In this document: positions 23,634 through 49,855 of the stretch, in pieces | Numbering within the stretch: the stretch's first letter is position 1 | How the letters are laid out: each line of letters opens with the position of its first letter | Source of the DNA: Dichotomocladium elegans | Lineage: Eukaryota; Mucoromycota; Mucoromycetes; Mucorales; Lichtheimiaceae | NCBI GenBank assembly: GCA_025716815.1 | Contig: JAIXMN010000011.1 | Span: 62,001-126,000 of the forward strand | Direction of reading: 5' to 3' | DNA: 64,000 bases | Translations under genes and position numbers: made by a program | The notes under the pieces: generated by a model | The model's input: the letters and a program-made list of their open reading frames with translations, nothing else | What the model was told of the DNA's origin: nothing | The model's database searches: none

Positions 23634-23686
23634 TTATGTTTCATCCTAATTTCAAAGGAAGAAGAGAAACGAAATACTAAAATTTG
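23634..23686 (+). mobile_element. MITE copy 2, internal piece between two CACTA elements
   Basis: This 53-bp stretch (TTATGTTTCATCCTAATTTC onward) continues MITE copy 2 from 17393. It is then cut by the second CACTA copy at AATTTG|CACTG. The rest of the MITE is missing. Confidence 0.88.
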
Positions 23687-29027: not shown

Positions 29028-29120
29028 ATAAAAGTGCAAAACCGCCAAATCGAACCTACGACCTACAGTATACCAGTAGTCCGCAGTTACCAGTATACCA
29101 ACATAACACAGATCTTCTTA
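29028..29120 (-). repeat. tRNA-derived SINE-like head inside the Merlin element
   Basis: On the minus strand, GGTCGTAGGTTCGATTTGG is followed by TTTTGCACTTTTATACC, the same order and tail as the units at 26555-26710. The upstream A-box-like part is weaker. It may be a fragment. Confidence 0.4.
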
Positions 29121-29504
29121 CTATACCATGTGGTTTTTGGTATGATAGTCAGTATTCCCTTTATGGTATATGAGTTATTATGGTTCAAATATATAATCCC
29201 TCATGTTTCACCAGATTCATGTAGCATCAGCTACAGTGACAGGTCACTATTAACTGACAGATGCCTCTACTGTGAAATGAGGTGGCTGAAGAGAATTAGA
29301 TTGCTATAGATATCACACATATTGGCACCAACTATCCCCCAAAAAATTATAGCTATGTAAAAATGACTCGGGAGAATGACTCAGGTCCACATTAGTAAGC
29401 TTTTTTCCCTTAATCCGGTATACCTGCTAGGCGGAGTATACTGTTACCAACTATATATAAAGAGGGCCATAGAATACACCCATCCTATCTTATCACTCTT
29501 CCCT

Positions 29505-30881
29505 ATGTCCACTGAGCCTAATCTAACCTCCCTCAGCACACCACTCCCATCTCTGTATGAGTTCTGGCCTATTGCAGGATGTGAATCCACAGCTTTCAGG
29601 TTGTTAAAGATTAACATATGTGATTAACATATATTCTGATGCACCACAATAGGTACCTTGTAGGTCAAGGCACTTTCTATAATGAAGACTACCAAGGCCC
29701 AGAAATTATGTGCCCAAATGGTGTTAGAAGAAACTTGGTTTTTGGTGGATCGCGTGGTCTTGTCTGGCAATGTCCAAAGAAAGAATGCTGCCATAGGTCT
29801 CACCGATCAATTCGTACCCAGTCGTTTTTCTACCAGCTGAAGGCTCCATTAAACAAGATTCTCTTGGTTATCCTACTTTTCCTCCAACGTTGCCCAACTA
29901 CCAATATTTCAGCTATGGCAGGGATATCAGTACCAACAGTAAGAGAAATCCTAAATATGGTCCTTTATGTAATGGAATGCCACCTTACTTTGGATGACAT
30001 GATGGTTGGCAAGTATTCTTTTCCTAGACACATTCACTATGCTATTTACTAATCTTCCATTAAACGATTATAGGAGGAATTGATGCTAATGGTGAGCCAA
30101 TTGTTGTGGAAATCGATGAAAGCAAGTTTGGAAAGAGGAAGTACCATCGCGGCCACCAGGTGGAAGGAGTCTGGGTTGTTGGTGGTGTTGAACGCACAGC
30201 TGCCCGAAAGCTGTTCCTTGCTACAGTTCCAAGGCGTGATGCATCTACTTTGGAGGCAATTATACAGAAGTTTGTTCGGCCTGGAAGCATTGTTCACACT
30301 GATTGCTGGAGGGGATACATGCATCTAAACGAACTGGATGGGTTATCTTTAACCCACCATACAGTAAATCATGAACATGCTTTCATTGCACCTGATGGTA
30401 CCCATACTAATACTATTGAAGGTAAGAATCAAAGCGCATTTTATAGCATTAACTCATCATTTAGTAGGTACATGGAATGGGATTAAAATCAATATCCCAC
30501 CCCGCCAACGCACAAGACAGAAAACGCCATGGAAACTAGTTGAGTTCATGTGGCGGCGCAAGCATTCCTTGGATCTCTGGGGTGGCTTTATGACTGCCTT
30601 AGCTAAGGTCGAATTCCACCATCTGCAAGGTTCAGTAATGCCTGTACCAGTGTACACACAGGTGGAAGAGACGCCTGCTGATTTAAGAGTGCCAATTGGT
30701 AGGTTACTAAATCTTTTACTTAGCATCTAACTGAACTGGATTGTTAAACACTATAGAATGGGACCTCAACAGCAGCCGCTTAACGCGCAGACGCATTAAT
30801 GATGACGATGGAGAGGAATCAAATAGCCAGAGTAGTAGTGATAGTGATTCAGATAGTGACTTTGTAGAATCTGATGACTAG
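29505..30881 (+). CDS. Merlin transposase (ISXO2/IS1595-like DDE)
   Basis: Exons at 29505-29599, from 29653, from about 30074, from about 30468 and 30757-30881. A zinc-ribbon-like part (IMCPNGVRRN, WQCPKKECCHRS) is followed by a helical region. The IS1595 catalytic core is Asp in VVEIDESKFGKRKYHRGH, Asp in IVHTDCWRGYMH and Glu in THTNTIEGTWNGIKI. The protein ends in a Ser/Asp-rich acidic tail (SSSDSDSDSDFVESDD). Four junctions are in phase. The junction near 30013-30074 does not join in frame with any GT-AG pair I could find, so a small lesion or unusual splice is possible there. Confidence 0.8.
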
Positions 30882-31431
30882 TTCTATTAGCTAGGCAAAA
30901 ATCAAAATTTTCTTTCACTTAACATGCATGCATTCAACTCTACACTATTTAAAGATGTGACTTTACTTATATATCATGTCACGGAAATGTCATTTTCATG
31001 CAGAAAATGCATAAAAAGGTGTTTCCTAGTCAGATATTAGATCCCGATCATTTTCAAACTGCAATAGCATATCCATATCTAAACCCCGCGTGACGCAAAC
31101 TATATGTGGAGGAAGCCCAGAAAACACGCTTTTAAACGCATATTTCAGCGTCACGATAGCTCAACCTGAAATAGAGTAACACATGATTTAAAAGGTGAGT
31201 ACATATCTTTACAGAGATCCGGCATTTTCAGCATCTCCTGCATTCAGTAATGTTTTTTGCTTCATCTCGATCGGCATTCGACAAATCTACGCGTCATTGC
31301 TTACTCAGATCTTAATGTCGCGTTTTCTCTTCATGGGGGAGGCAATGTTGGGATTTCAGCAGTTTGATCAGACAAGCTAATTAGCTACATTGCGCAGATT
31401 ATAAAAATTCTTGTTATTAAGGAAACAATCT

Positions 31432-33957
31432 CTAAAAGCGGTTCTGGCGATGGATGTTATTGTTTGATCGCTTATTGTCCCGAAGTTCTGATCGCAAGGC
31501 GCGTAATTGCTCTGATGCGCGATTCAAAATGGGAATGGCATTGTACGCGTAATTTGTGGAATTCACCGCATCTCGTTCATCAACCAGCAAGTTAAGCATG
31601 TCGTGGTACCTATACCAATTAGCTCAAAGTGGATTACTTGTAAGTTGAATTAACTACCTGCTGACCACTGCTTGCAATAATTGCTCTTGATCCACTTGCT
31701 GATTTGGAGTTGACACTTGCTGATTAACGACGATCTCCGCCTGAGATCGGCGCAAGTCTAGTAAGCCAATGCGCTTTACTCTGTTTAATAGGTACATGTG
31801 CTTACAGAGCGCATGGCTGCGCCGGAAATCGGGACAAGTGCAAGCCGTCATTTTGTTATTCTCGATTGCAATTGTGTAAGATATGGTACTGTCTGTGAAT
31901 GATACCACAGTTGCAGACGTTTCAGTGTACCCAGTGATCATTTCAGATGCATCGTCCTCTGTTTAATAAGTCCATTATTACATGCTTATACTAATACTGA
32001 CTATATACTAGATCACATGGAATAATTCTAGAAATAGTGGCAGTGGTGCATAAAGCAAGGAACTTACCATGAATATCTCTCGCAGCCCTATACCGTTGCT
32101 GCTCCGCCCTGGTCATCACGCTTGGCCTTACCAGCAGAGCCGTTTGTACATGGTCTGTCATCAGCGAAGGCAGCACAACATCCCAAAGAATGTACACCAG
32201 TACGTTCACGCGTTGCCGCTTCAGCCCAGCCAGGTAAACCTCTTTCAGGGATTGATGCCAACTTTCAATGAAATTGTTGGTGTCAATATGATAGTTCCTC
32301 TAAAATAAAACCTGAGTAAGCACTTATCTCTTATAATAGCATTGTGTACCTGACGCCAAACTCTGGACCATTTCTCTTTCTTGGGAAGGTAGTGGTCATC
32401 AAAATAAGCAATGAGTTCATCAGCATCCCATTCAGCTTCATGGTGCTCAATCCACATAACGAGTTCATCGTGCAAGCAATCAAAGTCCTCGACGTTCTCT
32501 GCATACATCATTCCCATGAGGTACTTTAAGGCGTCGTCACGATGTTGGCGCTTCTCTTGGATCGTTTTTCTGATTCCTAAACAGGGCATCACCTTAGCCC
32601 GAAGGTTCTTGCGCCATGCGTGAATGATGTGCCAGAAACAGAGCAAGATTTCGCATTCATCACCAAAGACCATAGTGATGGCAAGGATCTCCGTGTTGGA
32701 ATTGTCAATCATTATCTTTTCTGGATGAAAGCCGACGTCGATCTTCAGCCATCTGAGCCATTCAGCAATGGGATAGTGGGCTTCTGAGTTGGTGAGCATC
32801 CAACACAATGGCGCTCCTTTTCCAGTTTGGTGTGAACGCGCAACAATGGTGTAAAGGAAGCAATGGGATCCTGGTTTGTACACGCAGGTCTTGTGAGTTG
32901 AATCCATGCAAATCAAGCTGCCGTTCTCAAATAATGTCTACCGTGAAGATTAACACATATGGTTTAACGAAGCACCAAAGCAGTTTGAAGATTAAGATAC
33001 CTGTCGTTGCCACTGCGAAAGGAAGCTGAAAACAAGCATCCCATTCTGTATGTCGTCCATTTTTTTCCAAAGTACCATTCCAGATTCATTGCGAATTTTT
33101 TCTGCCCATTTGTTGAGACTGTCATCAATCTCGGGACTATGCAGTGCCCGTTTTTGAATGCACATACGCATTGCATAGTAGACGTGACGGTATGTAATAC
33201 GCAGAGATCGTGGGATTTCGGGGTGGCGCGGCATCAACTGGGCTTGGTCTTCATTGCATGCACCTTGCCCTCCTCGTTCGTTCAAAATACTTTCCAGGAC
33301 TGTACGATCGAGGTGCACAATTTGCTGGATGCTTGACCAGTTCAGACCAGTCTCAACCAACTGATTCAGTGCCTTGCGAACTTCTCTACTATTTGGCGCC
33401 GTTGCAAAATCTTGGCGTGAACGAGGAATGTGCCCGGTGTGTCGCCAGTGATAGGTTACAGTGACCTTGTTTGGATTAAAAATGTACCGCACTCCTTTGA
33501 TTGTGGCCTCACACCCACAAGATATGTTATCATGGGTCCGATTAGAGCTGCTGGAGGCTGTTGGCTGTTTGTAACGATGGCACTTATAGATCTGTCGCAA
33601 TATAAAGTAAGGCAAGTATGTTTTGTGTATTAAAATTCTTGCACATACCTCAGTAAAGCTGGTGCCAGAAGGACGGCCGCGTTTCACACCAAGAGCACTG
33701 CTGTTAGAATCACTCGTGCTGATCCCCAAGGGCTGCTCAATGCGCGCAAGAAACTTCTTGTTGCTCGTCGCAGTATTACCGGCTGTTCGGTTATAAAACG
33801 TACACCCTGTTCGTTTTTCCTCATGTGCAATGAAATTATGGAACTCGGCCCATTCGATCTCAATAACTGATGGGCATTCCACATCATAATCATACACGTC
33901 ATCCACAAACGATGCACGGAGTAATTCGGCAGCTTCTTCGACGAGATTTTGTGGCAT
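31432..33957 (-). CDS. MULE transposase 2 with SWIM zinc finger, intact
   Basis: Six exons (33649-33957, 33001-33591, 32350-32937, 32068-32299, 31658-31958, 31432-31609) join in phase to about 732 residues with no stops. All introns are GT-AG. An N-terminal DNA-binding-like region (TGCTFYNRTAGN, ISCGCEATIKGVRY) precedes the MULE domain: Asp in LICMDSTHKTC, Asp in MIDNSNTEI, CFWHIIHAW, Glu in NNFIESWHQSLK. A SWIM finger CTCPDFRRSHALCKHMYLLN and a helical tail follow. Exon 4 has the same length (232 nt) as in MULE 1. This is the best candidate for an active autonomous transposase in the window. Confidence 0.92.
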
Positions 33958-34418
33958 TGCCTATACAATGTAGCTAATTAGCTTGTCTGATCAAACTGCT
34001 GAAATCCCAACATTGCCTCCCCCATGAAGAGAAAACGCGACATTAAGATCTGAGTAAGCAATGACGCGTAGATTTGTCGAATGCCGATCGAGATGAAGCA
34101 AAAAACATTACTGAATGCAGGAGATGCTGAAAATGCCGAACTGGAATAAGGACAGAACCTTTTTCGTCTTTTTTTTTTTGCTTACAAAATACCAAGGGGC
34201 GCCCATGAAATTTTAAGACCAGATCTTCATGGAAGCAAAATTGTCTTCTTGCAACAACAGATCTCGACATCTGCTTAGTGATCTGTCTGAGCAGGGTGAT
34301 AAAACAGTGCTGTACTTCTGCAACGATTAACAACCGCGGATTTGCGAGGAAAACTGAGAAAATCGTAGAGAGCTGCTGTTTACGCGACATTCTTCACCAC
34401 ACTACGCATCAGAAGATA

Positions 34419-36055
34419 CAGCGGGCGCCAAAAGTGCACCAATGTTTTCAACTTTCTCACATTTTCTTAATTTCTTGGGCACATTTCTGTCTAAGGTTTA
34501 CAATGCAGCATTATAATATTCTTTGAGTGAACCACAATCAGCATGATATTTTCTAGGAGCAAAGCACCAGTATACTAGGAGCTATATCTACTTGAATTTA
34601 GACCATTCATTGGTGCACTTTTGACGCTGCCTTCCTTTATTTATAAAACTCTAAATTAAAGGTGGCTAATAGTCTATCCAGTATCCTTTGGCCTTGATAA
34701 CTTCGTTGCATCGCTTTGGCATTGTTTCAATAACCTTCTGGCATTCCTCCTTTGTGATTTTATACCAGGTGGCATAGATATGCTCCCAGTGTGCAATCAT
34801 TCCTGCAGGTGGAGAGTCATAATTATGGTAAAGCCGATATTTCAATAAAGACCACATGTTTTCAATTGGATTAAGGTCTGGAGACTGTGCTGGCCATTTC
34901 ATAACTTGGAATTCCTGAGATTTGAGCCAGTCTTGAACAATATAGGCAGTATGTTTTGGGTCATTTGTCATGTTGAAAGATTGTATCAGTTGCACCAAAG
35001 CCGTAATACTGCATGGTTTTTTGCAAGTCATCCTTGAGAATTGAAAGATAGAGCTCCTTGTCGAGTGTGTGATCAATTTTAGCTATGTATCCAGGGCCTT
35101 CCCAAGTTATACAACTCCAAAGTTTGATATTGCCGCCACCATGTTTGACTGTTTGCTGTACATGACGGGGAAGTAGTGGTTCGCAATCTCGTTTCCATGC
35201 ATAGAATTTCCCATCAGACCCAAAGCGATCGATCTTGGTTTCATCAGACCAAATTACACGTTTCCAGTCATCAATGGTCCAGTGAGCATGCTCGATTGCC
35301 CATTGGAGCCGAGCTTTAACGTTTGCTGTTCGTAAAAGTGGTTTCTTCGGCTTAACAAATGCACCAAGCCCTCCATTCTTGAAGACCCTCCGAACTGTTG
35401 CTGGGCTGACAGATATTCCAAGGTCACTTTCTAAGGCTTTTTGGACTTGCACTGCATTTTCCTTCCTTCCAATTGTGATCTGGCGGATACAGAAAGCTTT
35501 GTCACGCTGCGATAGCTTTGGTGGGCGACCCATTTTCATGATAGGAAGTGTTTCAAACGCTTTTTTCGCAATTCGGTTAACAGTAGAAGCACCAATCCCG
35601 ACTCGCTGAGCAGTTTCACGCCGTGAAAGCCCATCGGATAGATATTTCTTCACCTTGTCTTCGGTATCTTTTGGAATTGGTCGCATTATTTATTGGAGGA
35701 CTTACTATGAGAACTGAAAAGGAATTTATGGTTGCTAATGTCATCATTAGCAAGGCAACGCCTGATATTAGTGTCGCAAAATAAAAACACAACTTGTGGG
35801 TTGTTTTAACATGCATTGGAGCAGTTTGCGAGTAGCATAGAATTAGGCGTCAAAAGTGCACCAATGGCCTTGGTATGTTTACATCCCTTCAACTCCAGCT
35901 CACTCCGTTTCCCTCGCTTTAAAACTCAGATAAATATACAAAATAGGTCAGTGGAGAACATGGTTTAATGCTACAATATATAAATATAAATTGGATGAGA
36001 AAATGTATACTATATCAGAGAGAACTGAACATTGGTGCACTTTTGGCGCCCACTG
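34419..36055 (-). mobile_element. Tc1/mariner transposon in the right repeat of MULE 2
   Basis: The ends are CAGCGGGCGCCAAAAGTGCA and CAGTGGGCGCCAAAAGTGCA as inverted repeats. The flanking TA is duplicated (34417-34418, 36056-36057), and the left arm of MULE 2 shows the empty site. Inner copies of the end sit at 34609-34629 and 35846-35867 facing the outer ones, so each terminus is itself a ~210-bp inverted pair. Confidence 0.93.
34666..35686 (-). pseudogene. Tc1-like DD34E transposase, one-base frameshift
   Basis: An N-terminal paired HTH (SRRETAQRVGIGASTVNRIA; SVSPATVRRVFKNGGLG) with a GRPPKLS hook is followed by the first catalytic Asp in VIWSDETKIDRFGSDG. After IFQHD the frame shifts at an A-run (GACAAATGAC near 34970) and continues as NDPKHTAYIV, then NPIENMWSLLKY. 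With the extra A ignored, the spacing from the second Asp to the Glu is 34 residues (DD34E). The lesion is a single base, so this element is recently inactivated or the base is an assembly error. Confidence 0.9.
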
Positions 36056-36818
36056 TATAAGCTGAACACTTCTGAGTTTGTTTGGGGGCTTTCAGATGTC
36101 AATCTTTAAATGTCGAGCGGAGACCGTCCAAGGCGGAAGACTCGTGTTCAGGCATTGTGAAAAAAAACAAAATAAAAAATAGGAGTGGAAGAGATGCCAA
36201 AAAAAATTTTTCGCAAAAAAGCGCCCTGTGCTCTTTATTTTCAAAGCGTACAAAAGGTACGCGGCTGTTTGTCTCTTTCAAGAAGTGTCTTCCTCATATG
36301 TCCTTTTATAGTAAAACTGTCAAACGTTTGCGTGCATAAAGGCTCTCTTCTGATGAATATCGTGCACCCTACGAATAAAGGTAGCAGCATGCGAATCTAA
36401 TCCTACCCGCGAAAATAACCGTTGTTGACGCTAATATATTTTCCTATAGACTACGACGTCTGTGCTACGAAAAATGCCACCCATTGGTCTGAATCATTGG
36501 TGCCGCGAAAATTATCTTCACTTGGACTATTCCTTTCGTCAACTTTCCACCACAAAAATGAAAACAGGGAATACAAATCGGACTATAGACACAAGGTGCT
36601 TTCCCAAGGCGAAACGCATACTTCAACCGGCAATTCCTTTCTCCAACCATAATCCTTTTTCATACTATAGACATAGAGGTAGTTCTTTCCGGAATTCTTC
36701 CCTTCCGCTTCTTGAAATATTATTGCTTCAATTATTCTTTTCTTGCACTTCTCGAAAAAATACTCCACCCTATTATTTCTTTCCTACCTTTGGCCGGTAG
36801 CCAACCGAAAATCCTGTA

Positions 36819-37310
36819 CTACTAACCAGAAGTATGCCAGATGGCAGATCAAAACAAGACAAGAAGAGAACAGGAAGCAAGTCAAGAGCTAGACTAAAGG
36901 GGTGGGTGTTAGGTACTTTCCATTACGCAGCATACACCAAGTCGGATAACTACCAGGAACAAGGCAGAGCTGGAGAGGCGCGACAAGATGGATCAGATAC
37001 TTCAGGATAAGAGCAGAAACGGTTTACAGGACAGGACCGAGGCTTGACCAGGACAAGGTAAGTGGTATTTGGTAATTGTGACAATAATCTGATGATATTT
37101 ATTAGGACAAACTATGGCAGTATTTATACTAGCTATGATGTGTAGGACCAGAGTTCAGATAGCCTTGGACGTTGAGATACTGACTGGAAATTAATAAATG
37201 CAGTCGATAGATTGGGGAATTGGCCGGGAAGCAAATTAATGCAATGAGGGTGTCCATTGCATGAATGAAAATGCACGACCCTAAATGATTCCCAATTTGG
37301 TCATGACAGG
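36819..37310. other. Spacer between MULE 2 and the LINE array, nothing recognised
   Basis: It contains a purine-rich AGGACA/CAGGA-type segment (36840-37060) and no supportable gene. Confidence 0.4.
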
Positions 37311-37314
37311 CTAG

Positions 37315-37539
37315 GCCTGGGATCTTTGTAGCACAGGGCACAAGGGAATACTGGCGTTTTGCTGTGGTTGTGCTACTGTCGGGCACGTTAGTGTCGCCGG
37401 GAGTGGGATCTGGGGTTGCAGTGGGGATGGTGGTGGTGTTACGAGTGCATGGAATTTTGTTGTGTGATAGGGTATACTTTTAGCTTAAAAAATATATAAA
37501 GCCCTCGCATTCGCCGCGCGCGATGCTCAACAAGGTCTC
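37315..37539 (-). mobile_element. LINE copy 1: 5'-end fragment
   Basis: On the minus strand this is the 5' leader plus the start of ORF1 (DSSTTTAKRQYSLVPCATKI), diverged from copies 2 and 3. Homology stops near 37315, so only the 5' end remains. It abuts a tRNA-like 14-mer at 37540. Confidence 0.75.
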
Positions 37540-37553
37540 GCTTCCTTAGCGCA
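37540..37553 (+). repeat. tRNA 5'-end fragment between LINE copies 1 and 2
   Basis: GCTTCCTTAGCGCA matches the start of an elongator tRNA-Met type sequence better than tRNA-Asn. It marks the insertion point of LINE copy 2. Confidence 0.6.
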
Positions 37554-37792
37554 GTCAAAACATTTTATATTTTATTGAGGAGACGTATGGCCCCCGCCTG
37601 TTGGCATATGGCCACTCCATTAGCGTCTATAAGTGGGCTGATAGATGTAGGGGAATACAGTGTGAATTTCCAGGTGGTGCATTAAAAACCCCTGAGGGGA
37701 AAAGCCAACCACTGGTAAGAAAGAAGAAAATAAATGAAAAAGTATGTGCCTTTTGGCACCAGCGTGAGGGCAAGCCGTACTGGTTGTGGGGT

Positions 37793-40700
37793 CTAATCTA
37801 CAGCTTCTTGTCTAAGACGGGCCAGATCCGCTGCAAGGGCTTGGTCGAGCGCCAGCACTGGGTCGTCTTCGCCCATGTACTCATGCGGATCGGCTTCGGC
37901 ATGACTGAGAAAGTCTACCCGTCGAAGGTAGCGAAGTAGGGCAGGCCAGGTGTCAATCCATTGTCGGGTTTTGAGTCCGGAAGCATTCCGGGGAAGCGCG
38001 TTGCACAAAAAATCCACGGGGTGTTCATTACCTGGGAACGGGTGTGGATATGCTGACTGCAGGTCCTCCATGGCGGCGAGCACCAATGGACAGGCATTGT
38101 AATGCATGCGGTCGGCTTTTTCCTGTCCACACCGACATGGGCGAAGTGGATATGACGGCAGCCAGTGCATTCGCCAGTGCTGCAAACGGTGACGGTCACG
38201 CGTGCATGCTGGCAGAAACATAATCGGGTCGATCTGCCTCGTTGGGCGGAGTCGTGAGATGGTGGGGAATCGGCGGCGGCGAGCGAATTCCAAGTCACGG
38301 TGGTGGCTGACCGCGGCATGAATTGGGTCCAGCGGTGGGTCGGTGGCGGTGACCAGGCTTTTCCACGTTCTCCACACCGGGTTTGCTCTCGATAGCTTTC
38401 GCCAGTTGTCATCAGTATGCATGTGGCTTAACCATGTTAGCATGATTGAGCGCAACATTGTTGGGGTTGGCAGATCGTATGCACGGGCTACAAACTTGGC
38501 TTGCAGTATTTGTACCCGGAGCTGCATCAATGGGAGGTCAGCCATTACCATAGGAACGATGGTGGGGAGACGACGAGACACTGTGCTGTTCATTGCGAGT
38601 TTGACACAGCTGACCTGTGCTTTGTGCAGAAGTTGGAGCTGTGAAGCTGTTAGCGGGGCAATGGCGAGACCGTATTCCAGGACGGGACGCACGAACGTTC
38701 GATAGGCACGCAAAGCAGCCCACATGCCAATGCCATATCGATGGATGCCGACTTGTTGCAGTACGCTCATGGCACTAGTAGCTTTTCCCATACGTTCTAG
38801 GACGAGACGGTTGCGATCCAATCCGTGGGCACCAAAGGGGACACCAAGGTACTTGAAGGATGGGGCGGTGGGGATTGGAGAGTTATACAGGCTAAAGTTC
38901 CAGCCATCAGGGGCGTTGAGCATGACACATTTGTCGGGGTGCCAGCGGAAGCCGAGTTCGATTGAGTGGATTTCAGCGATAGCGAGCATGAGCACCATGT
39001 CTTCAGGTGATCCAACGAGCGCGACATCGTCTGCGTAGAGTAACGCATTGGCAATTAGCAAGTCAGTGTCTGGGCGGCGGTGCGGACGACCTCCTCGAAG
39101 GTTCTGCGTATAGTTCAGTCTATTGCTTCTGGCTTCTGTGACATTGTTGACCGGAGTGGTGCGGATGACCAGCGGGCGCGATAAGACAGGCACACGGGAG
39201 CGCAGGGCCTGTGGAAGTGAGTCAATAAATACAGCGTATAGCAGGGGACTGAGGATAGAGCCCTGCAGGACACCGCGGGCAGGTTGGATAAACCGTGACT
39301 GATGATGCTGAAGAATGACAGCGACGTGAACATCTTCGAAGAGGTGGCGGCATAGCTGTAGTAAAGGCCCAGGGACATGACCTCGTAATCGAGACCAGAT
39401 CACCTTTCTGTCAACAGAATCATAGGCGGCCTTAATATCCAGAAAGGCCACGACAGGCCACGCATCATACATCTGCTGATACCGGCGCATCAGCATCTGC
39501 AAGCAAAAGGCTTGGTCCAGCGCACCACGGTTTTGTCGGAATCCACCTTGAGCAATGTCCAAGGCAGGAATTTTGGACAGGAGACGTGGGAGCATGCATC
39601 TTTCCAGTATTTTGCGAAAAAGGCTTGTGAGGCTGATTGGCCTGAAGTTGCCAGGCTGTGCAGGGTCGCCTTTCTTGTAAATGGGTACGACTTGCGCTAT
39701 GCGCCATTCTTTTGGAGTCCACGACCATCGCCAGCAGAGCGTAAAAAAATCCGTGAGGAGCTCAGCGAGAGGGACAGCAATTGGCTTCAGCATGGCCCCG
39801 GTGATGTGATCGACGCCTGGTGCTTTACGGCTGGGCTGGACACGGATAGCGTCTATGACATCCTTGAGTCGAAAGGGTGAAGCACCCATCTCAGCAGGAT
39901 CAATACCAGGAGGTGGTCGGGTGCCCTCTTGCAGGGTCCCCCCGAACACGCTCTCAAGGTGTGACGCCATCATCTCTGCTGCTTGGTGTGGCCCATCATG
40001 ATGCGATAGCCACACGGAGGTTTGTCGGCTACGACGCATTCGTTTAATTACCGCGTTCATCTCGCCGTGAGGCTTGTGTTCCATTGTCCGGCAGAATTGC
40101 TTCCAGTGTGTTCGTCGAGTCCGTCGAAGTTCTTTGTCGAATGTGTCCCTAGTTCGGATAAAGTGCGCCCAAAGGATAGACCGCGCAACAAAGTTTCCGC
40201 CGGCGGTACGCCACGCACGATATGCCGCTTCGCGGGCATCTGCCAAACGCTGGAGCTCCTCGGTCCAAAACCATTTCCAATGCTTTGGCCGCATACGCCC
40301 TCGAGTCACGCTCTCATCCAATGCCTGTGTAATGCAGTTAGTAATGCGCGTACCAAGTTGTTCGATAATGTCGGCGCGTGTTAGATGGAAGTTACTGATA
40401 TTGAGGTGCGTGTCGATTTCTTTCCCTATGGGCTCAGCGATTCGGGTGAACTGCTGTACGTACAGCTCGAGTATTTCTGGGTCTTGAAGACGCTGTAGTT
40501 TCCAGTGTAGGCGTGGAGCGTTAGGTAAGGGCGTTGGTTGGATCGGGACGGTCGGGACAAAAGAAAACTCGCAAAGATGGTGTCAGAGTTCAGTGAGAGC
40601 TCCTGATGGACTACAAGGGATGGGTCGCGTACGGCGTCGTAGCGAGAGACGAAGAGGTCGATGATACTTGAGCCTAGATGGGACTCAAATGTAAATTGGC

Positions 40701-41220
40701 CTCGAGCCAAGGTACTGTTCCAGATGTGGAGTCCCCTTTCCATGATCCAATCACGGAACGGGGGGCCACGTTCGTTAGTGATCCGATCACCAAGAAGATC
40801 GGTGATCCGCGTATTGAAGTCGCCCAGGAGAATGGTGTTCTCTTCGATAGTGAGGTTGTCGAGGATGCGGTTGTATTGTTGTAGTGGGAGGGAAGGCGGT
40901 AGGTAGAGTCCATGGATCATGTAATGCCCCAGCTCGAAGCTGAGGATGTAGGGTGATGAGTTTGTGAGGCGGTGGATGTGGTATGGGAATTCTGGTCGAA
41001 CCAGTAATGTGAGCCCTCCAATGCCGCGTGTGCCATTGGTCGGTGTGTGTGCATAGTTGTGATGTTGGATCCAGTCCGTGGTAAGTCATCCGTTAGTTAG
41101 GTATGTTTCGGTTAGTAAAATAAGGTCAATGTTGAAATTAACGCAATGTCGTAATAGCTCGTCCGGTGATCGTTGAAGTCCTCGAGCATTCAATAAACCA
41201 ATCTTGATGTGGTTTATCAT
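37793..41220 (-). pseudogene. LINE ORF2 (endonuclease-reverse transcriptase), copy 2
   Basis: The ATG at 41220 overlaps the ORF1 stop as ATGA. The endonuclease part has LLNARGL, LLTETYL and LLGDFNTRITD. It is broken by a TGA at 41086-41088 (CGA in copy 3) and by a one-base loss near 40577. From 40321 to 37793 an 842-residue frame is intact: RT motifs FRPISLTSLFRKILERCML, VVAFLDIKAAYDSVDRK, GVLQGSILSPLLYAVFIDSL and the active-site box LLYADDVALV, then GFRWHPDKCVML and SFKYLGVPFG. A C-terminal Cys/His knuckle follows (PCRCGQEKADRMHYNACPL). It would prime reverse transcription at the nicked target. Confidence 0.92.
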
Positions 41221-42506
41221 TGTTGCATGTCTTCCGTCGTTGCATCTTCACCGTCGACGTCAATAGCGTCCTCTGGTGTCTGGAGGGTGCCAAAAACGGT
41301 TCGTGCATCGTCTTGGGATGGAACCGCTAATTGTCTCCGTGTTGGGCGAGGGCGTGCTAAGAGGAAGCACTCGAGGATTGACTGGTCCAGACGGTGCGGG
41401 TCATTGGCTGCCACATCGGCCACGAAATGGCGGAGGATTGCATAGCCTAGGTGCGCTTTGGGCAGGCGGATGCAAGCCCTCAGCATTCGCTCTGAGTACA
41501 ACTCACGAGCTTTCTCGATGCGTTGATCGGCAGTAAGGTCGGCATAAGCGGGCTGGACTATCGTATTAGCTGCGACGGGATCAAAATCGATCAACGTTAT
41601 TTTAGCCTGAGCGAGCTTCTCTTTAAGCTCGTTGACGAAGGAGGAGTGTATCAGCAAGCTGGTAACACCGCGCACGGGAAAATGCACGTCTATGATGCGC
41701 CCTTGAGGTACACCAAGGATTGCAAGCGCCCTTCTGACCTCGCTGTGTTGCGTTCGACGAGGGGATGAGAGATACAGCATCGCGTACCCCCGATTGCCAT
41801 CAACTGCTGCCGGTGCGAAGCAGCGGCTAGCCCAGTTTCTCATACCTTCGGTTGGTTGATCGACGCGTTGGCGACGACGTTGGGCGCGAGATGGAGGCAT
41901 GTGCTTTTTTGCAACAGAAGCCCAGGTAGTCGGGGAATTCTTTTGCGGTGTGGCATTGGTAAGATTGGCAGGACGATGCCGCGAATCCATGGTAGAGGTG
42001 CCTGGAATAGCTACTGCGTCCATGAAACGCACCACCGCAGATGGGCGTTCTGGCATGATGCTACCTTCTTGCGTTGGGGTGTATGGCTGCTGCGAGGTGG
42101 GGTTACGCAATGCGTCTAGTTCTTGACGGAGTTCTGCCGCAATCGCTTGTTCCTGAGCAAGGGCTGCTTTGAGTTGATCTCGCTCAGTGAGGAGTTCTTG
42201 CAATTGGCCCATCATGTTGTCATGGGCAGACACCAGCTGCTTCTGTTCGGCAAGTTGATGTTTCATCTCTGAGAGCTGCCGTTGTACAGTTTGCACCCAA
42301 TTAAACAAGTTAATTGAGTGTGGCACCTCCACTGGAGTTGCGATGGGTGTGTCATTTGCTTGCATTTCCTGTATTAATTTATCAAATGGCTGATCCACAG
42401 GGGATGTCGCTTGCGGGGAGGGCAGGTTATCGCTGATCCGTGTCGCCGATGATGCCTCTATCTCGGAAGTGATAGCGTCCTGGCGCATTGGTGAAGGTTG
42501 CATCAT
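41217..42506 (-). CDS. LINE ORF1 protein, copy 2
   Basis: The first in-frame ATG is at 42506; the open frame reaches 42557 before a one-base difference from copy 3. It is about 430 residues: a Pro/Ser-rich N-terminus, a coiled coil (VQTVQRQLSEMKHQLAEQKQ to QEQAIAAELRQELDALRN), a basic stretch (SRAQRRRQRVDQ), then an RRM-like fold (GYAMLYLSSPRRTQHSEVRR, VHFPVRGVTSLLIHSSF). This layout matches the RNA-binding ORF1 of L1-like elements, which packages the LINE RNA. It ends in the ATGA overlap with ORF2. Confidence 0.85.
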   Translation of the reverse strand: MMQPSPMRQDAITSEIEASSATRISDNLPSPQATSPVDQPFDKLIQEMQANDTPIATPVEVPHSINLFNWVQTVQRQLSEMKHQLAEQKQLVSAHDNMMGQLQELLTERDQLKAALAQEQAIAAELRQELDALRNPTSQQPYTPTQEGSIMPERPSAVVRFMDAVAIPGTSTMDSRHRPANLTNATPQKNSPTTWASVAKKHMPPSRAQRRRQRVDQPTEGMRNWASRCFAPAAVDGNRGYAMLYLSSPRRTQHSEVRRALAILGVPQGRIIDVHFPVRGVTSLLIHSSFVNELKEKLAQAKITLIDFDPVAANTIVQPAYADLTADQRIEKARELYSERMLRACIRLPKAHLGYAILRHFVADVAANDPHRLDQSILECFLLARPRPTRRQLAVPSQDDARTVFGTLQTPEDAIDVDGEDATTEDMQQ

Positions 42507-42767
42507 TCGCTTTTTCACCGGCTGTGGTGGGCCTGGGATCTTTGTTGCACGTGGCACAAGTGAATGCCTACGCTTTGCACGTGTTTGGGAGCCGTGGTGC
42601 TGCTGTCAGGCACGCTAGAAGTGTCGGTGGTGGTTGCGGGAGTCGTAATGGAGTTTGTAATGATGGCAGTTGTTGGGGCGAAAATTTCGACGGGCCGGAG
42701 AAAGTGTTTTACCGAAAAAGTATATAAAGACCTCGAATTCGCCGCGCGCGATGCTCGACAAGGTCTC

Positions 42768-42781
42768 GCTTCTATGGCGCA
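42768..42781 (+). repeat. tRNA-Asn 5'-end fragment between LINE copies 2 and 3
   Basis: GCTTCTATGGCGCA is identical to the first 14 nt of the complete tRNA-Asn at 47985. It is the left target duplication of LINE copy 3. Confidence 0.88.
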
Positions 42782-43019
42782 GTCAAAACATTTATATTTT
42801 ATTGAGGAGACGTATGGCCCCCGCCTGTTGGCATATGGCCGCTCCATTAGCGTCTATAAGTGGGCTGATAGATGTATGGGAATACAGTGTGAATTTCCAA
42901 GTGGTGCATTAAAAACCCCTGAGGGGAAAAGCCAACCACTGGTAAGAAAGAAGAAAATAAATGAAAAAGTATGTGCCTTTTGGCACCAGCGTGAGGGCAA
43001 GCCGTACTGGTTGTGGGGT

Positions 43020-46000
43020 CTAATCTACAGCTTCTTGTCTAAGTCGGGCCAGATCCGCTGCAAGAGCTTGGTCGAGCGCCAGCACTGGGTCGTCTTCGCC
43101 CATGTACTCATGAGGATCGGCTTCGGCATGACTGAGAAAGTCTACCCGTCGAAGGTAGCGAAGTAGGGCAGGCCAGGTGTCAATCCATTGTCGGGTTTGA
43201 GTCCGGAAGCATTCCGGGGAAGCGCGTTGCACAAAAATCCACGGGTGTTCATTACCTGGGAACGGGTGTGGATATGCTGACTGCAGGTCCTCCATGGCGG
43301 CGAGCACCAATGGACAGGCATTGTAATGCATGCGGTCGGCTTTTCCTGTCCACACCGACATGGGCGAAGTGGATATGACGGCAGCCAGTGCATTCGCCAG
43401 TGCTGCAAACGGTGACGGTCACGCGTGCATGCTGGCAGAAACATAATCGGGTCGATCTGCCTCGTTGGGCGGAGTCGTGAGATGGTGGGGAATCGCGGCG
43501 GCGAGCGAATTCCAAGTCACGTTGGTGGCTGACCGCGGCATGAATTGGGTCCAGCGGTGGGTCGGTGGCGGTGACCAGGCTTTTCCACGTTCTCCACACC
43601 GGGTTTGCTCCGATAGCTTTCGCCAGTTGTCATCAGTACGCATGTGGCTTAACCATGTAGCATGATTGAGCGCAACATTGTTGGGGTTGGCAAATCGTAT
43701 GCACGGGCTACAAACTTGGCTTGCAGTATTTGTACCCGGAGCTGCATCGATGGGAGGTCAGCCATTACCATAGGAACGATGGTGGGGAGACGACGCGACA
43801 CCGTGCTGTTCATTGCGAGTTTGACACAGCTGACCTGTGCTTTGTGCAGAAGTTGTAGCTGTGAAGCTGTTAGCGGGGCAATGGCGAGACCGTATTCCAG
43901 GACGGGACGCACGAACGTTCGATAGGCACGCAAAGCAGCCCACATGCCAATGCCATATCGATGGATGCCGACTTGTTGCAGTACGCTCATGGCACTAGTA
44001 GCTTTTCCTATACGTTCTAGGACGAGACGGTTGCGATCCAATCCGTGGGCACCAAAGGGGACACCAAGGTACTTGAAGGATGGGGCGGTGGGATTGGAGA
44101 GTTATACAGGCTAAAGTTCCAGCCATCAGGGGCGTTGAGCATGACACATTTGTCGGGGTGCCAGCGGAAGCCGAGTTCGATTGAGTGGATTTCAGCGATA
44201 GCGAGCATGAGCACCATGTCTTCAGGTGATCCAACGAGCGCGACATCGTCTGCGTAGAGTAACGCATTGGCAATTAGCAAGTCAGTGTCTGGGGCGGCGC
44301 GGGACGACCTCCTCGAAGGTTCTGCGTATAGTTCAGTCTATTGCTTCTGGCTTCTGTGACATTGTTGACCGGAGTGGTGCGGATGACCAGCGGGCGCGAT
44401 AAGACAGGCACACGGGAGCGCAGGGCCTGTGGAAGTGAGTCAATAAATACAGCGTATAGCAGGGACTGAGGATAGAGCCCTGCAGGACACCGCGGGCAGG
44501 TTGGATAAACCGTGACTGATGATGCTGAAGAATGACAGCGACGTGAACATCTTCGAAGAGGTGGCGGCATAGCTGTAGTAAAGGCCCAGGGACATGACCT
44601 CGTAATCGAGACCAGATCACCTTTCTGTCAACAGAATCATAGGCGGCCTTAATATCCAGAAAGGCCACGACAGGCCACGCATCATACATCTGCTGATACC
44701 GGCGCATCAGCATCTGCAAGCAAAAGGCTTGGTCCAGCGCACCACGGTTTTGTCGGAATCCACCTTGAGCAATGTCCAAGGCAGGAATTTTGGACAGGAG
44801 ACGTGGGAGCATGCATCTTTCCAGTATTTTGCGAAAAAGGCTTGTGAGGCTGATTGGCCTGAAGTTGCCAGGCTGTGCAGGGTCGCCTTTCTTGTAAATG
44901 GGTACGACTTGCGCTATGCGCCATTCTTTTGGAGTCCACGACCATCGCCAGCAGAGCGTAAAAAAATCCGTGAGGAGCTCAGCGAGAGGGACAGCAATTG
45001 GCTTCAGCATGGCCCCAGTGATGTGATCGACGCCTGGTGCTTTACGGCTGGGCTGGACACGGATAGCGTTATGACATCCTTGAGTCGAAAGGGTGAAGCA
45101 CCCATCTCAGCAGGATCAATACCAGGAGGTGGTCGGGTGCCCTCTTGCAGGGTCCCCCGAACACGCTCTCAAGGTGTGACGCCATCATCTCTGCTGCTTG
45201 GTGTGGCCCATCATGATGCGATAGCCACACGGAGGTCTGTCGGCTACGACGCATTCGTTTAATTACCGCGTTCATCTCGCCGTGAGGCTTGTGTTCCATT
45301 GTCCGGCAGAATTGCTTCCAGTGTGTTCGTCGAGTCCGTCGAAGTTCTTTGTCGAATGTGTCCCTAGTTCGGATAAAGTGCGCCCAAAGGATAGACCGCG
45401 CAACAAAGTTTTCGCCGGCGGTACGCCACGCACGATATGCCGCTTCGCGGGCATCTGCCAAACGCTGGAGCTCCTCGGTCCAAAACCATTTCCAATGCTT
45501 TGGCCGCATACGCCCTCGAGTCACGCTCTCATCCAATGCCTGTGTAATGCAGTTAGTAATGCGCGTACCAAGTTGTTCGATAATGTCGGCGCGTGTTAGA
45601 TGGAAGTTACTGATATTGAGGTGCGTGTCGATTTCTTTCCCTATGGGCTCAGCGATTCGGGTGAACTGCTGTACGTACAGTTCGAGTATTTCTGGGTCTT
45701 GAAGACGCTGTAGTTTCCAGTGTAGGCGTGGAGCGTTAGGTAAGGGCGTTGGTTGGATCGGGACGGTCGGGACAAAAGAAAACTCGCAAAGATGGTGATC
45801 AGAGTTCAGTGAGAGCTCCTGATGGACTACAAGGGATGGGTCGCGTACGGCGTCGTAGCGAGAGACGAAGAGGTCGATGATACTTGAGCCTAGATGGGAC
45901 TCAAATGTAAATTGGCCTCGAGCCAAGGTACTGTTCCAGATGTGGAGTCCCCTTTCCATGATCCAATCACGGAACGGGGGGCCACGTTCGTTAGTGATCC

Positions 46001-46436
46001 GATCACCAAGAAGATCGGTGATCCGCGTATTGAAGTCGCCCAGGAGAATGGTATTCTCTTCGATAGTGAGGTTGTCGAGGATGCGGTTGTATTGTTGTAG
46101 TGGGAGGGAAGGCGGTAGGTAGAGTCCATGGATCATGTAATGCCCCAGCTCGAAGCTGAGGATGTAGGGTGATGAGTTTGCGAGGCGGTGGATGTGGTAT
46201 GGGAATTCTGGTCGAACCAGTAATGTGAGCCCTCCAATGCCGCGTGTGCCGTTGGTCGGTGTGTGTGCATAGTTGTGATGTTGGATCCAGTCCGTGGTAA
46301 GTCGTCCGTTAGTTAGGTATGTTTCGGTTAGTAAAATAAGGTCAATGTTGAAATTAACGCAATGTCGTAATAGCTCGTCCGGTGATCGTTGAAGTCCTCG
46401 AGCATTCAATAAACCAATCTTGATGTGGTTTATCAT
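43020..46436 (-). pseudogene. LINE ORF2 (endonuclease-reverse transcriptase), copy 3
   Basis: The N-terminal 455 residues (45069-46436) are open and give a complete APE-type endonuclease: IGLLNARGLQRS, LILLTETYL, GGLTLLVRPEF, LLGDFNTRITDL, SSIIDLFVSRYD, LNSDHHLCEF. The following RT (FLDIKAAYDSVDRK, LLYADDVALV) is broken by about ten single-base deletions compared with copy 2, mostly in short runs (for example near 45152, 44463, 44091, 43660, 43230). The frame therefore jumps repeatedly. The shared stop is near 43020. Confidence 0.9.
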
Positions 46437-47722
46437 TGTTGCATGTCTTCCGTCGTTGCATCTTCACCGTCTACGTCAATAGCGTCCTCTGGCGTCTGGA
46501 GGGTGCCAAAAACGGTTCGCGCATCGTCTTGGGATGGAACCGCTAATTGTCTCCGTGTTGGGCGAGGGCGTGCTAAGAGGAAGCGCTCGAGGATTGACTG
46601 GTCCAGACGGTGCGGGTCATTGGCTGCCACATCGGCCACGAAATGGCGGAGGATTGCATAGCCTAGGTGCGCTTTGGGCAGGCGGATGCAAGCCCTCAGC
46701 ATTCGCTCTGAGTACAACTCGCGAGCTTTCTCGATGCGTTGATCGGCAGTAAGGTCAGCATAGGCGGGCTGGACTATCGTATTAGCTGCGACGGGATCAA
46801 AATCGATTAACGTTATTTTAGCCTGCGCGAGCTTCTCTTTAAGCTCGTTGACGAAGGAGGAGTGCACCAGCAAGCTGGTAACACCACGCACGGGAAAATG
46901 CACGTCTATGATGCGCCCTTGAGGTACACCAAGGATTGCAAGCGCCCTTCTGACCTCGCTGTGTTGCGTTCGACGAGGGGATGAGAGATACAGCATCGCG
47001 TACCCCCGATTGCCATCAACTGCTGCCGGTGCGAAGCAGCGGCTAGCCCAGTTTCTCATACCTTCGGTTGGTTGATCGACGCGTTGGCGACGACGTTGGG
47101 CGCGAGATGGAGGCATGTGCTTTTTTGCAACAGAAGCCCAGGTAGTCGGGGAATTCTTTTGCGGTGTGGCATTGGTAAGATTGGCAGGACGATGCTGCGA
47201 ATCCATGGTAGAGGTGCCTGGAATAGCTACTGCGTCCATGAAACGCACCACCGCAGATGGGCGTTCTGGCATGATGCTACCTTCTTGCGTTGGGGTGTAT
47301 GGCTGCTGCGAGGTGGGGTTACGCAATGCGTCTAGTTCTTGACGGAGTTCTGCCGCAATCGCTTGTTCCTGAGTAAGGGCTGCTCTGAGTTGATCTCGCT
47401 CAGTGAGGAGTTCTTGCAATTGGCCCATCATGTTGTCATGGGCAGACACCAGCTGCTTCTGTTCGGCAAGTTGATGTTTCATCTCTGAGAGCTGCCGTTG
47501 TACAGTTTGCACCCAATTAAACAAGTTAATTGAGTGTGGCACCTCCACTGGAGTTGCGATGAGTGTGTCATTTGCTTGCATTTCCTGTATTAATTTATCA
47601 AATGGCTGATCCACAGGGGATGTCGCTTGCGGGGAGGGCAGGTTATCGCTGATCCGTGTCGCCGATGATGCCTCTATCTCGGAAGTGATAGCGTCCTGGC
47701 GCATTGGTGAAGGTTGCATCAT
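46433..47722 (-). CDS. LINE ORF1 protein, copy 3
   Basis: The frame is open from before 47830 to 46433. The first in-frame ATG is at 47722, and initiation further upstream would need a non-AUG codon. Coiled coil, basic segment and RRM-like region are as in copy 2, with a handful of substitutions. The stop TGA (46433-46435) overlaps the ORF2 start as ATGA, suggesting ORF2 is translated by termination-reinitiation. It looks functional. Confidence 0.86.
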   Translation of the reverse strand: MMQPSPMRQDAITSEIEASSATRISDNLPSPQATSPVDQPFDKLIQEMQANDTLIATPVEVPHSINLFNWVQTVQRQLSEMKHQLAEQKQLVSAHDNMMGQLQELLTERDQLRAALTQEQAIAAELRQELDALRNPTSQQPYTPTQEGSIMPERPSAVVRFMDAVAIPGTSTMDSQHRPANLTNATPQKNSPTTWASVAKKHMPPSRAQRRRQRVDQPTEGMRNWASRCFAPAAVDGNRGYAMLYLSSPRRTQHSEVRRALAILGVPQGRIIDVHFPVRGVTSLLVHSSFVNELKEKLAQAKITLIDFDPVAANTIVQPAYADLTADQRIEKARELYSERMLRACIRLPKAHLGYAILRHFVADVAANDPHRLDQSILERFLLARPRPTRRQLAVPSQDDARTVFGTLQTPEDAIDVDGEDATTEDMQQ

Positions 47723-47937
47723 TCGCTTTTTCACCGGCTGTGGTGGGCCTGGGATCTTTGTTGCACGTGGCACAAGTGAATGCCTACGCTTTGCACGTGT
47801 GTTGGGAGCCGTGGTGCTGCTGTCAGGCACGTTAGAAGTGTCGGTGGTGGTTGCGGGAGTCGTAATGGAGTTTGTAATGATGGCAGTTGTTGGGGCGAAA
47901 ATTTCGACGGGCCGGAGAAAGTGTTTTACCGAAAAAG

Positions 47938-47946
47938 TATATAAAG
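47938..47946 (+). promoter_or_regulatory. TATA-like element 39 bp upstream of tRNA-Asn, inside the LINE
   Basis: TATATAAAG lies at 47938-47946, on the tRNA strand, 39 bp before the tRNA start at 47985. The same block is present at the 5' ends of LINE copies 1 and 2, so it is LINE sequence that ends up as the tRNA's upstream region. TATA boxes near -30 assist polymerase III at tRNA genes in several fungi; the role here is inferred. Confidence 0.5.
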
Positions 47947-47984
47947 ACCTCGAATTCGCCGCGCGCGATGCTCGACAAGGTCTC

Positions 47985-48058
47985 GCTTCTATGGCGCAAT
48001 TGGCTAGCGCGTCTGACTGTTAATCAGGAGGTTGGTGGTTCGAGCCCACCTAGGAGCG
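47985..48058 (+). tRNA. tRNA-Asn (anticodon GTT)
   Basis: This is a 74-nt cloverleaf. The acceptor strands GCTTCTA and TAGGAGC pair with one U-G wobble at position 4, and the discriminator is G. The D-arm has GGCGCAATTGGCTAGCGC. The anticodon loop is CTGTTAA with GTT at 48019-48021, and the T-arm has GGTTCGAGCC. There is no intron. T-runs follow at 48093 and 48130 as possible terminators. Canonical eukaryotic tRNA-Asn starts GCTC; the T at position 4 may come from the abutting LINE. Confidence 0.95.
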
Positions 48059-49855
48059 ATTGTCAAACCTGAAAAAAATTGGTATGGATATTATTTTGGC
48101 TCCCTGCAGTAGGTCACGTGATTTTCTCTTTTTTTTTGATAGCCCGTGACCTACTCAAAATGCTGGAAGCATCAGTTATCCTAAACCATCAAATGTCACC
48201 TCCTTCCTTCGTGAGGATTATGGATATCCCTTTCTGCCAGTTTTACCATGTCATTTGTCTGTTCACTATACTTTTGCATAATGGTATTTCACATAGCTAT
48301 ATTCCTATACGTGGCTTTAGTAATCCTCAGCTGTAGTGGTATCTACACGATATCAATTCATAAAATTGAAAAGACATCTTTCATCTTCAGTTCAGTTATT
48401 CTTACATATGGCCAAGGTCTATCCGCCAAAGATAACAACCATCTGTGGTTTTTCTGTTTGTCGTTGCACTATCGTTATTTTTGGCGGAAAGACGTTAACC
48501 AAATGTAGAAGCGATATCCTTTTAATGTTATGAATTAATGAACCTATATATACGTACTGCTGCTCTTGATGGTTACTAAAGATAGAATAAGAAAGGATAA
48601 TAAAAACGATAATAGTTAGTAATCCGCACGAAAGCTGTAGATGATGACCGCGAACAATGCCGCTAAATATTTCAATTGCTCACAAAATTCTAACGCAATA
48701 GCACAACGATCCCGGTAAATTAGAAGCTGTGTGAGGCCGCAGCACTTCCTGACTAGAATGTTGAGACGCCCCATCCATCATCATAGATTAGAAAATATTA
48801 GTGCCACATCACATAGCTAGTAATAAAGATCATACAAGGTATTTTTTATTATTATTACCACCTTGCTCCCCAGCACGTCTCTACTAGCCACAGATATATC
48901 CGCCAAAAGTCGACAATTTTCACTTCCACACGGACAAATACAAAGAAGAATAGCGGGAGCGTAAGATAATGTTTTAATGTTTATCTTCTGGGATTGTCCA
49001 CTATTTATAAATTGCTGAGGTGGTGCTAAGCATGATATGGCCAAGATCATCCGGTTTGTTTCTTTGATATTTGTTGTCCTGTTTTGGAAGAAGGACAGTT
49101 GGAATCTTCGTATTCGTTTGAAGCGCAAAGTGTGAGTAGACCATAAAGTAATCACAAGGGAATCTGAAGATAAATGATGCTTTATATTGTAAGATAAGTT
49201 GTCCCTTATTATGCCGTTTTCTAATATGTACTATAAATATCATCCATACAGAACTAATGCGTTTAAAGAAGTAAAATGTCGTACTTAGGGGCGTAATGAT
49301 GATGCATATGTTATTGTTTGCCTGTCATGGGATCAAGAAAAGAATCTCATGGATTACACCTGAGAAACAAGACCAAAATGGAAGCCGATTACTGAGTCAA
49401 CCAGATGGCTGATCTGGCTGCAACGCCTTCACTGTTTTCCGAAATTAAAAAGTCGCGTCCTAGCCCAGAAATTTTTACGCATGATGACAAAGCAAATGTC
49501 GCATGCAAGGCAAAAGATGTCGTCCAGAAACGTTTGATAAATTCATCTCCACAAATGCTAGTCAGTGTCTTGCCATTTCTTTTATACCCTTTTGCATTAT
49601 AAAACGAGCAATCTATTCTTTTACGATGAGGATGGCTCCCCTATTAACTATGTTGTTGATGAGAAAATATACTCTCTTCAATCAGTTTTTTCTCGCGCAG
49701 AATACCTGCGTAGTCTATCTTGCAGGGATCACTCTGATATTGTTGCTACGCATATCTCTAAGCGAAAGGATGCAGATATTCAATGAAAGAAGCAGATTTT
49801 AAGCGCGGCTACACAATGCACACCGACAAGGATAAGCTCATATTTTTAAATTGAT
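48059..49855. other. Region downstream of tRNA-Asn, no recognised gene
   Basis: AT-rich, with only short frames. It contains an 11-bp perfect inverted repeat AGTAGGTCACG (48108-48118 / 48145-48155) enclosing a T9 run. Frames at 48817-49155 and 49405-49800 have no recognisable motifs. Confidence 0.45.

Follow-up and report, generated by a model that had tools for sequence, protein, structure and literature searches.

In dictyostelids, non-long terminal repeat (non-LTR) retrotransposons that are directed to transfer RNA (tRNA) genes insert outside the gene, TRE5 at 40-54 bp upstream and TRE3 at 40-150 bp downstream, NLTR-A at 2-6 bp upstream and NLTR-B at about 50 bp upstream, according to the sections consulted of the published accounts (PMC5911963, PMC5006619). 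The same sections describe Ty3 and Ty3-like LTR elements as placed at the RNA polymerase III (Pol III) start region of tRNA genes (PMC5911963, PMC5006619). Insertion inside tRNA genes is described, in the consulted parts of the sources, for Dada DNA transposons, some of which lie at nucleotides (nt) 8-13 in the A box (TAGCTC; PMC3706591, PMC8869645). The consulted part of the genome description of Lichtheimia corymbifera mentions 174 tRNAs and non-LTR elements without a link between them (PMC4133162). A literature search, which subscription journals and Repbase lay outside, found no paper on long interspersed nuclear elements (LINEs) inside tRNA genes that regenerate them, and nothing on retrotransposons of Dichotomocladium. 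Here we describe a group of elements of this kind in the mucoralean fungus Dichotomocladium elegans, in a window of 64,000 nt (C13:62001-126000; coordinates without a contig name are positions in this window) and across the 39.4-Mb assembly of 122 contigs (C numbers) from which it comes. The elements are apurinic/apyrimidinic endonuclease (APE)-type non-LTR retrotransposons. Judged from the sequence of their junctions, the insertions are flanked by a duplication of tRNA nt 1-14 of which the downstream copy belongs to a complete tRNA gene, and a conserved leader module at the 5' end of the LINE stands in place of the tRNA's original upstream region, a feature that the preliminary description of the window had missed.

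Junctions between the LINEs and tRNA genes

Two full-length LINE copies in the window lie head to tail, both antisense to a tRNA-Asn gene and 98.9% identical to each other by blastn. The LINE 5' end adjoins tRNA nt 1, and the 3' end comes after nt 14. Copy 3 (42782..47984, minus strand; 5203 bp) lies between perfect 14-bp duplications, as had been claimed: nt 1-14 of tRNA-Asn (GCTTCTATGGCGCA) at 42768..42781 on the plus strand are identical to 47985-47998. The right-hand duplication does belong to a complete tRNA-Asn(GTT) at 47985..48058 on the plus strand, which ARAGORN found with one extra flanking base at each end and which scores 65.7 bits against Rfam RF00005. The statement in the preliminary description that copies 2 and 3 both end where a tRNA begins holds fully for copy 3, which adjoins this intact gene, but copy 2 (37554..42767, minus strand; 5214 bp) adjoins only nt 1-14 of tRNA-Asn, after which copy 3 follows. 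To the left of copy 2 is an orphan tRNA-Met nt 1-14 (GCTTCCTTAGCGCA; 37540..37553, plus strand), identical to the first 14 nt of tRNA-Met at C110:13545 and C13:30291. It differs from the Asn 14-mer on the right at 3 of 14 positions, and copy 2 is therefore without a matching duplication. Further left, copy 1 (37314..37539, minus strand) is the 5' remnant of an older LINE with the leader module at its end; when 20001-37539 was searched by blastn, homology to copy 3 was limited to 37314-37391 (73%) and 37487-37539 (92%).

When the assembly was searched with the four observed LINE 3' ends, 36 of 37 were found to be preceded by sequence resembling tRNA nt 1-14 (at most three mismatches); in 32 the preceding 14 nt are exactly nt 1-14 of a tRNA of the same genome, and in four further ones they are off by one or three bases. 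These ends are of five types (A, 6 places; B, 8; D, 12; E, 6; F, 5) with two target classes, so that the single LINE family of the preliminary description has to be given up. Types A, B, E and F are found in tRNA genes for Asn, Met, Lys, Tyr, Ile, Thr and Phe only, with the motif TRGCKCA/RTYGG (class 1; the slash marks the break), the exceptions being one place on C28 and a degenerate Asn-like 14-mer on C68. Type D is found in Glu and Asp genes only, with the motif TRGTMYA/GTGG (class 2). In those combinations in which element and target have different bases at nt 15 (type A in Asn or Lys genes, types B and E in Ile genes, type F in Lys genes), the break follows A14. In the tRNA sense the elements start with RTY(G) (GTC in type A, ATTG in B, ATCG in E, GTCG in F and GTT in D), as tRNA nt 15-18 do, which leaves the A box almost complete on the orphan side.

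The terminal 18-mer of the LINE 5' end (GATGCTCGACAAGGTCTC, tRNA sense) occurs at 43 places exactly and at 6 with one mismatch, and all 49 adjoin a tRNA 5' end, 28 of them at intact tRNAs and 21 at array junctions in which the 18-mer is followed by tRNA nt 1-14 and then by the next LINE. The tRNA starts at the next base in 44 of the 49, one base later in 4 and seven bases later in 1. Chance is excluded by 36 of 37 3' ends and 49 of 49 5' ends at tRNA junctions. Six of the 12 places with two mismatches were read; four were kept as LINE (C73, C77, C80 and C112; one tRNA and three junctions) and two, both on C1, are not LINE. With these added, the totals are 29 tRNAs and 24 junctions on 32 contigs, and the adjoining tRNAs are those of nine amino acids. 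Two places with three mismatches were read (C13:30308 and C21:9831), both beside LTR elements; at up to three mismatches the 18-mer has 137 matches, compared with 23 for a reversed control.

The left and right 14-mers are identical in 21 of the 29 copies with both ends known (the other 8 of the 37 have one known end and were left out), whereas shuffling of the right ends, which ignores relatedness within arrays, gave 4.2 identical pairs on average and at most 11 in 20,000 shuffles. The cleanest cases are the five F copies, each at a different tRNA locus, with flanks and a 14-mer of its own. Three of these (C41, Phe; C44 and C79, Thr) have unrelated upstream sequence and nt 1-14 on the left, and the LINE leader followed by the same complete tRNA on the right; because the flanking base differs between the two sides, the duplication starts exactly at nt 1. 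In the other two, either two flanking bases agree (C60) or both leaders are LINE-type (C63). The earlier proposal of insertion in the 5' part of a tRNA gene with regeneration of an intact tRNA is thus supported by the 3' ends, the 5' ends and the equal flanks.

The coding content is that of an APE-type LINE. Open reading frame 2 (ORF2) has an APE endonuclease domain, detected in copy 3 (45069..46436, minus strand; PF14529, E 5.2e-11; PF03372, E 8.1e-7), and a reverse transcriptase (RT) domain, detected in copy 2 (37793..40321, minus strand; PF00078, E 6.9e-21), and related proteins carry both domains together. Comparison of the two ends of copies 2 and 3, each with its own other end, revealed no terminal repeats. 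ORF1 of copy 2 (41217..42557, minus strand; 446 amino acids) probably encodes a coiled coil; for this frame and for ORF1 of copy 3 (46433..47830, minus strand; 465 amino acids), Pfam gives weak coiled-coil matches only, below the curated cut-offs. The ORF2 frame is broken in both window copies and open in the five F copies, at 1127 amino acids each, four being equal in score and the fifth 1.5 bits lower. The closest RTs are those of Lichtheimia ramosa and L. ornata, at 55-57% identity, with relatives also in Circinella, and the PDB matches of the RT include R2-like RTs and human L1 at similar strength. The survey of junctions that the preliminary description had proposed places most copies at tRNA genes and not away from them: among the best 54 of 197 ORF2 candidates, which were scored, 33 are at least 49% identical to copy 2, and in 31 of these one end or both could be mapped to a tRNA junction, a figure that does not include 19 LINE loci of lower identity (<49%). 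Two copies of a more distant LINE (37-44%) lie at C31:497244-504801 with a spacing of 5242 bases, possibly another targeted tandem array. In viral contigs ORF2 has no match, and the leader 18-mer has 3 matches, a chance-level number, with none before a tRNA. The window also contains many DNA transposons, including DDE transposase genes at 2104-3405 and 6076-7452 (DDE_Tnp_4; DDE_3) and a 5.4-kb inverted repeat at 20931-26389, which matches its reverse complement at 99% identity and has tnp2-type transposase genes (PF02992) on each strand.

The leader module and the regenerated tRNA

The last ~51 nt of the LINE, which in the tRNA sense read TATATAAA...CAAGGTCTC, are common to three 5'-end types that are otherwise dissimilar, namely A with its old form, C2/E/F, and D. 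These are 81-92% identical over the terminal 51-62 nt, and beyond the module, in the 400 nt compared, they align over short weak stretches of 17-55 nt only. The module lies at 42717..42767 in copy 2 and at 47934..47984 in copy 3 (plus strand, tRNA sense), and each of the three window copies has TATATAAA from -47 and CAAGG from -9 relative to the tRNA (47938-47945 and 47976-47980 in copy 3). For comparison, 27 native leaders were picked by hand, those with an LTR end being left out. CAA is present at -16..-5 in 14 of the 27, against 5.4 expected, a number that none of 1000 shuffles reached, and TATA-like words are present at -50..-31 in 8 of the 27, against 3.3 in mononucleotide shuffles of which 9 in 1000 were as high, a modest enrichment. 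The agreement between the LINE leader and native leaders is good for the start site and only fair for TATA. No RNA fold shared by the module in the three 5'-end types was predicted (z -1.8, +0.3 and +0.2), and the module is more suggestive of a DNA element than of a structured RNA.

The leader is carried by 29 of the 62 tRNA 5' regions that match the two target motifs, or by 28 of 61 if counted as independent loci, as C74:68139 and C95:34319 each lie 581 bases from a contig end and are probably one locus. The share is 20 of 45 in class 1 (Asn 4/4, Ile 5/9, Thr 5/8, Phe 2/5, Lys-CTT 2/9, Lys-TTT 0/3, Met 1/3, Tyr 1/4) and 9 of 17 in class 2 (Glu 7/11, Asp 2/6). The class 1 pattern gave 50 matches, of which 5 without a B box were dropped, and the class 2 pattern gave 23, of which 6 (TCTCCTRTGGTCCAG) were dropped by sequence after one of them had been read; for 6 of the 17 retained genes, reading covered the first 23-26 nt. 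The Rfam survey of tRNAs scored the best 63 of 1319 candidates. Among Gly and Arg tRNA genes, 0 of the 13 examined carry the leader. A pattern for A-box tRNAs without C at nt 2 had 112 matches against 162 in a reversed control, and was dropped as giving no signal.

A similarity search (E up to 10) together with the pattern found four nuclear tRNA-Asn genes, a count that covers genes present in the assembly and similar enough for either search, and all four stand behind a LINE leader, with none behind another leader; their downstream flanks differ. As tRNA-Asn is essential, at least one LINE leader probably supports tRNA expression. It is an evenly balanced proposition that a portable tRNA promoter or leader has evolved at the 5' end of the LINE, antisense to the element, and replaces the external promoter of the gene, in which case all nuclear tRNA-Asn and much of the Ile, Thr and Glu tRNA would be made from LINE-borne leaders and the selfish element would be nearly harmless. 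If this were true, a selfish element would control the 5' side of an essential gene set.

Somewhat doubtful, though it deserves serious consideration, is the alternative that the 51-nt module serves the LINE itself, as a 5' internal RNA polymerase II promoter or in R2-like processing of the RNA end, and that its likeness to a tRNA leader is a by-product. Many LINEs keep an internal promoter at the 5' end, at the extreme 5' end of the element the module is invariant, and its TATA lies ~10 bp upstream of the native peak. However, the CAAGG at -9 fits the native leaders, the essential tRNA-Asn appears to depend on the module, and processing of an RNA end finds no counterpart in a predicted fold common to the three 5'-end types or in the Rfam matches up to E 5 in 47500-48150, among which there was no ribozyme of the hepatitis delta virus (HDV)-like kind. 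An R2-like ribozyme at the LINE 5' end was rejected as a candidate on these last two grounds.

Proposed mode of insertion and growth of arrays

We propose with high confidence, from sequence comparison, that a group of APE-type LINEs inserts antisense at a fixed position of tRNA genes, by a nick between A14 and R15 and target-primed reverse transcription, giving a 14-bp duplication, a regenerated tRNA with an element-borne leader, and arrays by further insertion. The element's endonuclease would nick the tRNA-sense strand between A14 and R15, within the A box, and the freed 3' end of nt 14 would prime reverse transcription of the LINE RNA. The second strand would be cut 14 bp off, which would be nt 1 in every tRNA because the position of A14 is fixed. 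The leader module would support Pol III transcription of the regenerated tRNA, such that insertion would do little harm, and the regenerated tRNA would be a fresh target, such that arrays would grow at the tRNA end. Some copies would have acquired unequal flanks later, through exchange among the tRNA loci that carry LINEs. We infer that the tRNA end is the young end of an array, and in the window the diverged copy 1 at the far end supports this.

Several observations weigh against this proposal or some part of it. One of the E-type 3' ends (C28:146817) adjoins no tRNA, and two of the 33 ORF2 copies (C56:189778 and C97:23117) are without a mapped tRNA junction. The position of the cut is ambiguous by one base, since all targets have A14, and in type D by two bases. 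None of the 3 Lys-TTT genes has the LINE, although they match the target motif, and two Glu genes (C58 and C61, with identical flanks) adjoin a truncated LINE without the leader. The TATA of the LINE is at -47, whereas TATA-like words in the 27 native leaders peak at -40 to -21. Finally, 8 of the 29 two-ended copies, including window copy 2, have unequal 14-mers (one mismatch in four, three in three and six in one). Single-base differences may be decay, while a single insertion cannot give pairs such as Met/Asn in window copy 2, Tyr/Ile on C95 and Asp/Glu on C21, which suggest exchange between LINE-bearing tRNA loci. At the exceptional site on C28 (146750-147070), it was also observed that C28 has no ORF2 match among the best 54 of 197 candidates.

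Growth of arrays by serial insertion, as put forward in the preliminary description, is supported assembly-wide, where 24 junctions (two-mismatch places included) show a further LINE at the tRNA next to a LINE 5' end, but the array in the window did not arise in this way alone, since copy 2 is flanked by a Met 14-mer on the left and an Asn 14-mer on the right. That arrays are instead segmental or tandem duplications of a LINE-tRNA unit is unlikely as a general explanation. Neighbours of the same type (in the window and on C44, C58 and C61), the duplication of some flanks (C58/C61, and C74/C95, which are equally far from contig ends) and the need for some exchange to account for the 8 of 29 copies with unequal 14-mers are in its favour. 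However, duplication is refuted as the sole cause by the five F copies at five tRNA loci with their different flanks and own 14-mers, and four arrays are of mixed type (A followed by B at C13:1066786, B followed by A on C68, E followed by B on C55 and A-like followed by B on C35), which favours repeated insertion, as duplication alone does not make mixed arrays. Same-type neighbours may also come from unequal exchange, and duplication may account for some arrays, including part of that in the window.

LTR-type ends (...AGGACCTGACA, ...GACA, ...GTGTCA) lie roughly 8-13 bp upstream of many tRNAs. At C55:17985-21145 a 398-bp solo LTR lies inside a LINE leader, between copies of GACA (a 4-bp duplication), from which it follows that Ty3-like elements use the same tRNA start regions. 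These elements bear on the very improbable alternative that the leader is host-owned, an upstream sequence that was always at these tRNA genes and that the LINE picks up or sits beside. The sequence is upstream of 29 tRNAs, and another 10 tRNA genes show an LTR-type end with a remnant like ACAAGGTCTC after it. In two places (C55 and C21), however, the LINE leader lies beyond the LTR, in one of them before an orphan Asp 14-mer, such that interruption of a LINE leader by an LTR element explains the remnants there. Every 18-mer place with at most one mismatch precedes a tRNA or an array junction. The leaders of LINE-free paralogues (genes for Thr, Phe, Lys, Ile, Met, Glu and Asp) are unrelated to it, as is the leader on the left of the same insertion in three F copies, and on these two grounds a host-derived leader was rejected. 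An artefact of assembly has a negligible probability: arrays of near-identical 5-kb repeats are difficult to assemble, some of the junctions are close to contig ends and C74:68139 and C95:34319 are probably one locus, but the junctions recur on 32 contigs, with five 3'-end types and tRNAs of nine amino acids.

Comparison with known systems

Among elements that are site-specific at multicopy RNA genes, R2, Keno/Utopia, Mutsu and Dewa resemble the D. elegans LINEs in this respect but have other targets, Dewa being located in tRNA-Leu spacers, as far as the consulted parts of the sources describe them. All of them insert by target-primed reverse transcription. The endonuclease of R2 is restriction-like, in contrast to the APE endonuclease of the D. 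elegans LINEs. According to the consulted part of its description, R2 carries a 5' ribozyme (PMC3414825). The A-box site of Dada overlaps the site of the D. elegans LINEs; however, Dada elements have a DDE transposase and a 6-7 bp duplication, and regeneration of the whole gene is not described in the sections consulted, whereas the D. elegans LINEs have RT and APE domains and a 14-bp duplication. Ty3-like elements, again as described in the sections consulted, differ in having an integrase and LTRs and in lying upstream of the gene, and similar elements are also present in D. elegans, some of them within a LINE leader. The integrative elements of bacteria and archaea that insert at the 3' ends of tRNA genes restore the tRNA with element-borne sequence, as the D. 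elegans LINEs appear to do at the opposite end of the gene, but they do so with a recombinase and att sites.

The proposed mode of insertion would link the stagger of two nicks to the geometry of the tRNA, and predicts an endonuclease that reads the A box. The regenerated genes would allow the upstream requirements of Pol III in Mucorales to be tested on natural examples, and they illustrate a way in which element-borne sequence may become necessary to the host for an essential RNA. Such an element could also yield a programmable 'safe' insertion system.

TRE5-A, TRE3, NLTR-A and NLTR-B of dictyostelids are, in the sections consulted and like the D. elegans LINEs, APE-type non-LTR elements aimed at tRNA genes that stay intact. 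In contrast to these TRE and NLTR elements as so described, the D. elegans LINEs would cut inside the gene, at the fixed base nt 14/15, and they have in common a leader module at the LINE 5' end, which adjoins nt 1. The tRNA-directed non-LTR elements in the literature consulted thus keep a distance from the gene, whereas the LINEs of D. elegans would avoid damage otherwise, by cutting inside it where a 14-bp duplication restores the whole gene from nt 1 and by bringing their own leader. What is new in comparison with known site-specific APE-type LINEs is the target position and the element-borne tRNA leader.

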